Assembly (NCBI GenBank): GCA_030830865.1
Contig: JAURME010000010.1
Coordinates: 1-47,993 of the forward strand
Length of the DNA stretch: 47,993 nucleotides
Reading direction: 5' to 3'
Source: Candidatus Nanopelagicales bacterium
GTDB lineage: Bacteria > Actinomycetota > Actinomycetes > S36-B12
Part shown: in pieces, positions 2,270 through 47,585 of the stretch
How the letters are laid out: each line of letters starts with the position of its first letter
Position numbering within the stretch: position 1 is the stretch's first letter
Program-made: the position numbers and the translations under genes
The notes under the pieces: model-generated
What the model was told of the DNA's origin: nothing
What the model saw: only the letters and a program-made list of their open reading frames with translations
Databases searched by the model: none

Positions 2270-2521
2270 ATGGCACACAAGAAGGGCGCATCCAGCACCC
2301 GCAACGGTCGCGACTCCAACGCGCAGCGGCTCGGCGTGAAGCGTTTCGGCGGCCAGCAGGTCAACGCCGGCGAGATCATCGTCCGCCAGCGCGGCACCCA
2401 CTTCCACCCGGGACACAATGTGGGCCGAGGCGGCGACGACACCCTCTTCGCCCTCGCGGCGGGAGCGGTGAAGTTCGGCACCCACCGCGGTCGACGGGTC
2501 GTCAGCATCGTCGCGGAGTAG
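2270..2521 (+). CDS. rpmA: 50S ribosomal protein L27
   Basis: [29 protein letters not shown]. Confidence 0.98.
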
Positions 2522-2593: not shown

Positions 2594-2655
2594 CGCGAGT
2601 GGTCAGTTGTCGGGGTGTCCGGGCCCCGGATCACCCCGACAACTGACCACTCGCG
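2594..2655. repeat. Long perfect inverted repeat (element A)
   Basis: Left arm cgcgagtggtcagttgtcggggtg (2594-2617), right arm caccccgacaactgaccactcgcg (2632-2655). 24/24 complementarity; the 14-nt centre can itself fold (tccgg-gcc-ccgga). Confidence 0.95.
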
Positions 2656-2689: not shown

Positions 2690-4084
2690 ATGGCCACGTT
2701 CGTCGATCGCGTCGTCCTGCATGCGCAGGCCGGGGACGGCGGCAACGGCTGCGCCTCGGTCCTGCGAGAGAAGTTCAAGCCCCTCGGCGGCCCCGACGGC
2801 GGCAACGGCGGACGTGGCGGCGACATCGTCGCGGTCGTCGATCCGCAGGTCACGACGCTGCTGGAGTTCCACCACGGCCCGCACCGCAGGGCCGGCAACG
2901 GCAAGCCCGGTCAGGGCGGCAACCGCAACGGTGCCGAGGCGGCCGACATCGTGCTGCGGGTTCCCAGCGGCACGGTCGTCACCACCGAGAGCGGCAAGGT
3001 CCTTGCCGACCTCGTCGGACCCGGTGCCACCTACGTCATCGCCCGCGGTGGTCGCGGCGGCCTGGGCAACGCCGCCCTCGCGTCCCCGCGCCGCAAGGCG
3101 CCCGGCTTCGCCCTCCTCGGTGAGCCCGGCGAGCACCGTGACGTCGTCCTTGAGCTCAAGACAGTCGCCGACGTCGCGCTGGTGGGCTTTCCCAGCGCCG
3201 GCAAGTCCAGCCTCGTCGCCGCCCTGTCGGCGGCCCGCCCGAAGATCGCCGACTACCCCTTCACCACTCTCGTGCCAAACCTCGGCGTCGTGACGGCCGG
3301 AGAGGTCGTCTTCACCGTCGCGGACGTGCCCGGGCTCATTCCCGGGGCCAGCGAGGGCAAGGGGCTCGGCCTGGAGTTCCTTCGCCACGTCGAGCGCTGC
3401 AGCGTGCTGGTCCACGTCCTCGACTGCGCCACGATGGAGTCTGAGCGCGATCCGCTGGTCGACTTCGACATCATCGAGCATGAGCTGATGGAGTACGGCG
3501 GTCTGGCCGACCGTCCCCGTCTCGTGGCGCTGAACAAGATCGACGTGCCCGACGGTCGCGCCATGGCGGACCTCGTCCGTCCGACACTGGAGGCGCGGGG
3601 CTATGCGGTGCACGAGATCTCGGCAGCGACCCATGAGGGTCTTCGGCCGCTGACATTCGCGATGGCCGAGCGCGTGATGGCGGCCCGTGCCGCGGCGGTC
3701 CCTGACGAGACGGCCCGCATCGTGCTGACCCCCAAAGCCGTCGACGACTCCGGCTTCACCGTCTCTGTCGAGGACGACGGCTTCCGGGTACGCGGTGACC
3801 GTGCGGAGCGATGGGTCCGCCAGACCGACTTCAGTAACGACGAGGCCGTCGGCTACCTGGCCGATCGACTTGCCCGGCTGGGGGTCGAGGAGGCGCTCGT
3901 CGAGCAGGGAGCGACTCCCGGCTGCACCGTCATGATCGGTCCGGACGAGAACGCCGTGGTGTTCGACTGGTACCCCAGCATCGTTGCCGGCGACAGTGCA
4001 GCGATGATGCGGGAGGCCAGTCCGCGTGGCACGGATGTTCGTCTCGACGCGCGGATCGACGAACTGCCCGGTGGTGACCGGTGA
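2690..4084 (+). CDS. obgE: GTPase Obg/CgtA
   Basis: [29 protein letters not shown]..., [27 protein letters not shown]-terminal OCT domain. Confidence 0.98.
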
Positions 4085-46188: not shown

Positions 46189-47585
46189 CAGCGGGCGCTG
46201 ACCGACCGCTGTGTGACCGGGGCTGACCCCGGATCCATCAGGCAGACCACGCGATCACCTTCGGGAACCACGGCGTACGGCTGCCCTCCGAGCAGAGACC
46301 GTGCGACGAACGCAGCGGTGAGACCGTTCACGTCGATGACGGGTCCGATCGGGAACAGTGATCGCGTCTCGTCGATGGCGTCGTCGGCCCCCGCTCGCAG
46401 CACCACCTGAAGCCCGGGCCGCACGGCAGTCGCAGCGAGGGCCACGGCGATGCTGTCGCGCTCCTCGCTCCCAGCCGCGACGAGAGCGACGGCGTTGTTG
46501 ATGCCGGCCCGCTTGAGCACGCGCCGTGAGGTGGCATCGCCGATGATGACCGGGATGTTCAGGTCGCGGGCGAGTCCTAGCCCCGACGCGTGGGGGAATC
46601 GCTCGATGCCCAGCACCGCAACGCCGAGGGCTCGGAGCTCCTGGGCGAGCCGGATGCCGACCTGCCCCATGCCGACGACGATCACGTGGCCACCGTGCGG
46701 GATGACCCTGCGGCCGAACAGCGCGACGTGTCGGCCCGAGAGCAGGTGGTGGACGATGCCGGCGGCGAACGCCGCGGTGAAGCCCATCACGAGCAGCGCT
46801 GCGATCGTCGCCCAGACGAGTTCCGCCGTGTGGTCCTGCAGGTCCGGTGCCGAGATCGTGGCGGTCGTCCGAGTGGCGTCGTAGAGGGCGCGGAGCAGTG
46901 AGTTGTGCTGCAGGCCCACGAGGGTGTCGATCGCGATGATGAGGAGCAGTCCGAAGGCTCCGCCGAGGAGGACCGCCGAGCCCGAGTCGTAGGCGTGCAG
47001 TTGGCCGCGGATCCTGCCGAACAGGCCTCGGAACCGCAGTCCCGACGGTGTCGTGAAGGGTTCGACCCGGGCAAGGTCGCCACCGTCGCCCGAGGGAGTG
47101 TCGATGGCGACCCACTGGGCCTCCAGCGATGAGCCACGGCGCCGGATGGCATCGTGTTCCGGAGCGATGGCGGCCGCCACGATCGACGGCACGCTGATGG
47201 ACGCGGGGGACAGCACCACGCAGTTCGGCACGTTCGCCTCGAGTTGCTTGCGCACGGTGCGGTCGAACAGCGCCACGAAGAGGCGGATGCCGGGTCGCAT
47301 GTGCTCGATGACGAGGCTGTAGCGCAGGGCGCGGATGTCGTCGTGAAGCAGGACCGCGACTCCGGTGACGCCGGCGTGCAGTGCCGCCCGGAGTTCGGCG
47401 TCCGACGGATCGTCGAGGTGGATCGTCGACGTCCCGGCGTCCTGCAGGAGTGCGCACGCGCGCCGACCCACGTCGGTGTGGCCGATCACGACCACCACCC
47501 CGGTTGCTGCGTCAGTTGTTGGGGTCGACACGCCGGTGTCGACCCCAACAACTGACGCAGCAACGTCCTCGGATGCGGGATTCAC
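46179..47585 (-). CDS. TrkA-N / two-TM / TrkA-N domain protein (putative ion channel or NAD-binding membrane protein)
   Basis: VVVVIGHTDVGRRACALL (first Rossmann), two hydrophobic helices, HVIVVGMGQVGIRLAQELRALGVAVLGIE (second Rossmann). GTG start. Confidence 0.85.
   Translation of the reverse strand: MNPASEDVAASVVGVDTGVSTPTTDAATGVVVVIGHTDVGRRACALLQDAGTSTIHLDDPSDAELRAALHAGVTGVAVLLHDDIRALRYSLVIEHMRPGIRLFVALFDRTVRKQLEANVPNCVVLSPASISVPSIVAAAIAPEHDAIRRRGSSLEAQWVAIDTPSGDGGDLARVEPFTTPSGLRFRGLFGRIRGQLHAYDSGSAVLLGGAFGLLLIIAIDTLVGLQHNSLLRALYDATRTTATISAPDLQDHTAELVWATIAALLVMGFTAAFAAGIVHHLLSGRHVALFGRRVIPHGGHVIVVGMGQVGIRLAQELRALGVAVLGIERFPHASGLGLARDLNIPVIIGDATSRRVLKRAGINNAVALVAAGSEERDSIAVALAATAVRPGLQVVLRAGADDAIDETRSLFPIGPVIDVNGLTAAFVARSLLGGQPYAVVPEGDRVVCLMDPGSAPVTQRSVSARCAC
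47503..47564. repeat. Long perfect inverted repeat (element B) within the 5' coding region of the TrkA-N gene
   Basis: Left arm gttgctgcgtcagttgttggggtcgacac (47503-47531), loop gccg, right arm gtgtcgaccccaacaactgacgcagcaac (47536-47564): 29/29 complementarity. Confidence 0.97.

Follow-up and report, generated by a model that had tools for sequence, protein, structure and literature searches.

The window analysed here, meaning the whole stretch of 47,993 nucleotides, is contig C44 of the Candidatus Nanopelagicales bacterium genome G000 (2.49 Mb in 176 contigs). It carries a long palindrome between rpmA and obgE and a second palindrome of the same family further downstream. The relevant features are as follows, the parts of the palindromes being given without strand.

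2270 to 2521, plus strand: rpmA, the upstream gene; the palindrome starts 72 nt past its stop codon
2541 to 2572, plus strand: terminator-like hairpin of rpmA, separate from the palindrome and kept in congeners that have no palindrome
2594 to 2616, no strand: left 23-nt arm CGCGAGTGGTCAGTTGTCGGGGT, dialect A, the dialect of five of the six full copies of this genome and of most copies in the congener G005
2617 to 2632, no strand: 16-nt variable middle, constant in length and little conserved in sequence, flipped relative to the G005 orthologue
2633 to 2655, no strand: right 23-nt arm, the exact reverse complement of the left arm
2690 to 4084, plus strand: obgE, the downstream gene; the palindrome ends 34 nt 5' of its ATG
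47503 to 47564, no strand: second family member, dialect B, arms GTTGCTGCGTCAGTTGTTGGGGT; an orthologous copy (L052) occurs in G008

The first-pass annotation had described a 24-bp perfect inverted repeat, distinct from the hairpin of rpmA and unlike a classic terminator, and all three statements were confirmed. Positions 2594-2617 and 2632-2655 are complementary at 24/24 pairs with 14 nt between them, and the rpmA hairpin lies just upstream and is conserved where the palindrome is missing. No T run is present on either strand at 2594-2655, nor in the other copies displayed, and an intrinsic (rho-independent) terminator was rejected given the missing U tract after the hairpin. A known Rfam family was also discarded, as only sub-threshold hairpin look-alikes were recovered at 2594-2655, none of them above the gathering score. 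In the frame common to the whole family, the element consists of 23-nt arms around a middle of exactly 16 nt (23-16-23), with a total length of 62 bp. The element lies far beyond chance expectation: the paired-arm pattern (with at most 3 mismatches) occurs at 6 places in the 2.49-Mb genome and at none for the reversed control, and the copy at 2594-2655 scores 78 bits (E = 2e-17 in the window) with a covariance model that includes this copy itself.

The first-pass annotation would have been refuted by a lack of other copies in the genome and of conservation in relatives, and the opposite was found. The host genome holds about 7-8 copies, namely five full copies of dialect A, a sixth full copy at 47503-47564 with different outer arms, one degenerate and one half copy, and the covariance model, with every copy scored on both strands, recovered family members in every genome of the genus (14/14). 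Copy number ranges from about 8 in G000 to 30-40 in several other congeners, with a maximum of about 40, and a pattern search also recovered the palindrome in G041, from another family of the same order. A gap-free alignment was obtained for 33 copies from six genomes. In these first-collected copies the 10-nt inner cores TTGTnGGGGT and ACCCCnACAA are exactly 16 nt apart in 33/33 cases and belong to longer symmetric arms, each about 23 nt in length. Across 88 copies from 15 genomes the conserved arm positions read GAGTGG...GTTGT.GGGG, while the 16-nt middle is almost free. The arms form "dialects" that are uniform inside some genomes and different between genomes. Two hybrid copies (L055 and L160) combine arms from different sub-variants and are possible intermediates of arm-to-arm correction. 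As to the second palindrome of the window, its arms are perfect over 29 bp in all, and its 16-nt middle matches that of the G008 orthologue at 15/16 positions when flipped and at 11/16 directly.

Several repeats of similar appearance were set apart from this family. Palindromes with a similar core in the Chloroflexales ZM16-3 and ZM17-4, in Pirellulales and in others have other spacings and T/A-rich tails. Those of ZM16-3 and ZM17-4 (L091, L107-L109, L125, L131, L144 and others) are long and abundant, share a TTGTYGGGGT core and have centres of 19 or 21 nt; they are apparently unrelated. The Actinorugispora-type repeat (G276) is a separate family with a different palindrome (GTTTTCGGGGTCTC...), of which this genome carries at least 4 copies (loci L161, L167 and L171). 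A DNA-uptake sequence was rejected as well, with only about 10 exact 12-mers in G000, nearly all of them paired.

The palindromes occupy a characteristic position with respect to genes. They usually follow a stop codon by no more than 15 nt; the nearest stop codon lies at a median of 14 nt (measurable in 75/89 copies), in several copies a TGA stop is contained within the arm, and 25 copies sit between convergent genes as compared with 3 between divergent ones. Neighbouring genes are diverse (rpmA/obgE, smpB/ssrA, tig/clpP, rmlB/rmlD, mreB, groEL, infA and others), and a shared regulon was sought among them and not found. The tmRNA gene ssrA keeps a palindrome beside it, between smpB and ssrA in G000 (L043) and still next to ssrA in G005 (L057), where smpB is located elsewhere. 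No flanking direct repeats indicative of target-site duplication were seen by eye in the displayed copies, the empty rpmA-obgE sites being too diverged for exact alignment.

The rpmA-obgE palindrome is common to G000 and G005, and none was seen in the other congeners with a readable region. The obgE genes of these two genomes are identical at only 147/275 (53%) of their four-fold sites, which contradicts the earlier description of the element as recent, and all arm bases (46/46) are identical between the two copies. Their 16-nt middles agree at 12/16 positions when one is flipped and at 6/16 directly, indicating that the middle has been inverted. Maintenance of symmetry by gene conversion, also proposed by the first-pass annotation, or by template switching is plausible, given an inverted middle between 46 unchanged arm bases. 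Turnover is also seen at other sites. At rmlB-rmlD and 3' of tig, the site is occupied in several species by palindromes whose dialect differs, and the rmlB-rmlD copy of G000 appears, by eye, to have been deleted between CCAC repeats, one outer arm end being left. Mean identity of the 16-nt middles within genomes is barely above that between genomes, G041 being the exception, and recent copying of all palindromes from a common ancestor finds no support in the middles except within G041.

Of the 23 arm pairs, 19 have changed on both sides, as compared with 7 to 13 in slid controls. Among 48 copies oriented by their adjacent gene, G.U cells (15) are no commoner than A.C cells (17), and the earlier suggestion of an RNA hairpin is not upheld. 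Since the arm pairs change on both sides and G.U is not favoured over A.C, we infer that arm symmetry is maintained at the DNA level and not for the sake of an RNA stem.

Palindrome pairs about 1 kb apart were found to bracket one gene family, as compared with a background density of 3 palindromes per 400 kb (in G002). A profile search (cut-off E <= 1e-55) recovered 28 homologues in the genus. Combined with the hits of the palindrome model and of a palindrome scan that needs no model, it shows that 24/28 have a palindrome on at least one side and 19/28 on both. Five of these 28 close homologues have a one-sided palindrome, some being truncated by contig ends, and 4/28 have none, three of the latter representing a single orthologous locus. 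This locus (L307, L309 and L318 in G004, G003 and G005, respectively) lacks a palindrome on either side and is possibly a domesticated copy. A complete cassette consists of a palindrome, about 50-115 nt, one ORF of ~290-310 codons and a palindrome over the stop codon. The geometry is fixed in most cassettes: the 3' palindrome runs over the stop codon, and about 44-115 nt separate the end of the 5' palindrome from the start. Homologues in other genera and in families f3 and f7 likewise lie between near-perfect palindromes of other arm sequence, and the protein type occurs in 18/40 genera searched.

No cassette with the exact dialect A was found in the G000 assembly, the only homologue there being a distant one (L310, C39:50663-51415) flanked by its own palindrome pair with unrelated arms (ACCTGCAG...GCGACAC). 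A close match to the dialect A arm is that of cassette L348 from another genus, at about 19/23 positions by eye, and arms of the dialect B type, as at 47503-47564, flank nuclease genes in G012 (L363) and G004 (L319). Comparison of genomes revealed loci in different states. At one convergent-gene locus, a full cassette is present in G006, G013, G011 and G012 and a short clean intergenic gap in G002. At another, G007 carries the nuclease and the 3' palindrome, the 5' one missing, and G001 and G004 have a solo palindrome where that same gene ends, with only one flank alignable. Among the loci compared, there is as yet none in which a solo palindrome and a full cassette align on both flanks. The occupied, solo and empty loci are consistent with gene gain and loss at palindromes, without proving it.

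The bracketed ORF encodes an AbiEi-like N-terminal and middle region fused to a DUF559 (Vsr-like, EDxHD-type) nuclease domain. DUF559 was recognized by Pfam in 18/18 members, and AbiEi by PADLOC profiles in the N-terminal and middle part, with E down to 9e-15. An AlphaFold2 model of a cassette protein (mean pLDDT 88.7) was matched by Foldseek to the catalytic domain of I-Bth0305I (3r3p) with a probability of 1.00 and a target TM-score of 0.71 at a modest E of 0.02, and no strong match to any solved structure was obtained for the N-terminal region. AbiEi occupies two inverted repeats of 23 bp with 3 bp between them, the repeat pairs bound by Rv2827c being 13 bp apart (PMC7319586), and the target on which I-Bth0305I forms a dimer measures nearly 60 bp (PMC3943268). 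By analogy, a 62-bp palindrome of 23-16-23 architecture would be the expected target of a fusion between an AbiEi-like and an I-Bth0305I-type protein.

Protein and palindrome diverge together. Nuclease similarity correlates with arm similarity when one representative per locus is taken (r = 0.65, p = 0.0004, or r = 0.37, p = 0.011 with the B-type left out), and it also does so in an order-wide set of 34 loci (r = 0.57, p <= 0.0005). Each cassette carries both partners, so that the correlation may partly be due to physical linkage; it shows co-inheritance and is insufficient alone to prove recognition. A comparison independent of linkage points in the same direction, cassette arms being nearer to the solo palindromes of their own genome than to those of other genomes (permutation p = 0.007). 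The agreement is clearest in G001 and G012 (22/22) and is also seen in G002 and G008, while several cassettes misfit.

The rpmA-obgE palindrome is thus a real, old and arm-conserved solo member of a nuclease-associated family. On comparative grounds, we consider it probable that this element is the recognition palindrome of the nuclease cassettes in solo form, a putative binding or docking site of such a nuclease. The earlier proposal of a palindromic mobile element stands insofar as the family behaves as a palindromic repeat element; its mobility is only partly supported, and "recent" is wrong for this copy. In the mechanism that we envisage, two protomers would bind the two 23-bp arms in the way that AbiEi-family proteins bind paired inverted repeats of 23 bp, while cutting or nicking by the nuclease domains would take place inside the 16-bp middle. 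Because the proposed cut falls within the middle of the palindrome, a palindrome devoid of the gene would become a target, and repair from a palindrome-gene-palindrome copy would insert the gene. Recombination between the two flanking palindromes would remove it again, leaving a solo copy, and the tolerance of gene 3' ends to insertions may let such copies persist there. The upstream palindrome probably doubles as an autoregulatory operator. Perfect symmetry would be held by selection for binding together with hairpin or template-switch correction, the latter also flipping the middle.

Other explanations account for part of these observations. The protein could be a regulator, or a nuclease of phage defence, that does no more than bind the palindromes, the flanking copies serving for autoregulation and the solo copies being selected chromosomal sites (for self-marking, repression or silencing) with no mobility involved. 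The end of the 5' palindrome 44-115 nt before the start in most cassettes, which resembles an AbiE operator (PMC7319586), is what such a role would predict, as are arms that stay intact between G000 and G005 despite the divergence of obgE and sites 3' of tig and at rmlB-rmlD that are common to several species. We nevertheless regard this explanation as unlikely: the neighbouring genes form no regulon, solo copies shun promoters and cluster at stop codons, a palindrome is also present at the 3' end of each cassette, and copy number varies from 8 to about 40, with clean empty sites and deletions.

Less likely still is a MITE- or REP-like system, in which the nuclease, acting like a transposase, would carry 62-bp palindromes to the 3' ends of genes, together with its own gene when enclosed by a pair of them, in the manner of RAYT and REP. 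The many extragenic palindromes of species-specific sequence that follow stop codons, together with the repeats on either side of a nuclease gene, are reminiscent of such a system, yet most copies within a genome differ in the 16-nt middle (G041 excepted), as recent copies of one element would not, a Y1 transposase is encoded in none of the 14 genomes and no obvious target duplication is visible by eye. An element acting at RNA level at 3' ends, either a bidirectional terminator or an mRNA-stabilising hairpin, is very improbable. Although the hairpins would be very stable and lie just past stop codons, often between convergent genes, the T tract is missing, conservation exceeds what pairing demands, with a middle of fixed length and the G.U and A.C counts given above, rpmA has a conserved hairpin of its own, and the association with a nuclease would be left unexplained. 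The REP/RAYT, terminator and RNA-hairpin explanations are all worse fits than that of a solo nuclease site.

Comparison with known systems helps to place the cassettes. EDxHD (Vsr-like) homing endonucleases of the I-Bth0305I type share the predicted C-terminal catalytic fold and act as dimers on a long target of about 60 bp (PMC3943268), close in size to the 62-bp palindrome. In contrast to this type, the N-terminal region is AbiEi-like, and the gene is free-standing between flanking genes, outside any intron or intein, has a full near-perfect palindrome on each side and shares its genome with many solo copies. The missing intron or intein is not decisive against a homing endonuclease, since free-standing ones are known. 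REP/RAYT systems likewise have extragenic palindromes at 3' ends, species-specific dialects and a nuclease gene flanked by repeats; membership was rejected, PF01797 (Y1/HUH) being absent from 14/14 congeneric genomes and detected in control genomes. Also, the nuclease is here of the Vsr/DUF559 type, and the element is symmetric, 62 bp long and has a variable centre of constant length. The operators of AbiE type IV toxin-antitoxin systems (AbiEi, Rv2827c) resemble the present ones in an AbiEi-like protein, pairs of 23-bp inverted repeats and a fixed short spacer before the gene (PMC7319586). They differ in the spacer, which is 16 bp here and 3 or 13 bp there. Here, moreover, the cassette has a single gene and no DUF1814 toxin between the palindromes, where only one ORF fits, a nuclease domain is added, and palindromes also occur 3' of the gene and scattered genome-wide.

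In the literature, covered incompletely, no description of such an arrangement was found for DUF559 with palindromes, AbiEi or mobile elements. We tentatively suggest, at somewhat less than even confidence, that the cassettes represent an undescribed class of selfish elements: free-standing AbiEi-Vsr-type nucleases that would home into their own 62-bp palindromes and lie between two of them, nuclease and palindrome co-diverging into many specificities and genomes retaining solo docking sites, tens of them, behind stop codons. The association ties a so far anonymous protein type of actinobacteria, DUF559 joined to an AbiEi-like region, to a concrete DNA site, and its function is directly testable. 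If the cassettes do home, they would offer a natural collection of nuclease specificities, each paired with its target, and an independent counterpart of REP/RAYT built on another nuclease fold, and would explain long perfect palindromes of high-GC genomes that are easily dismissed as terminators.
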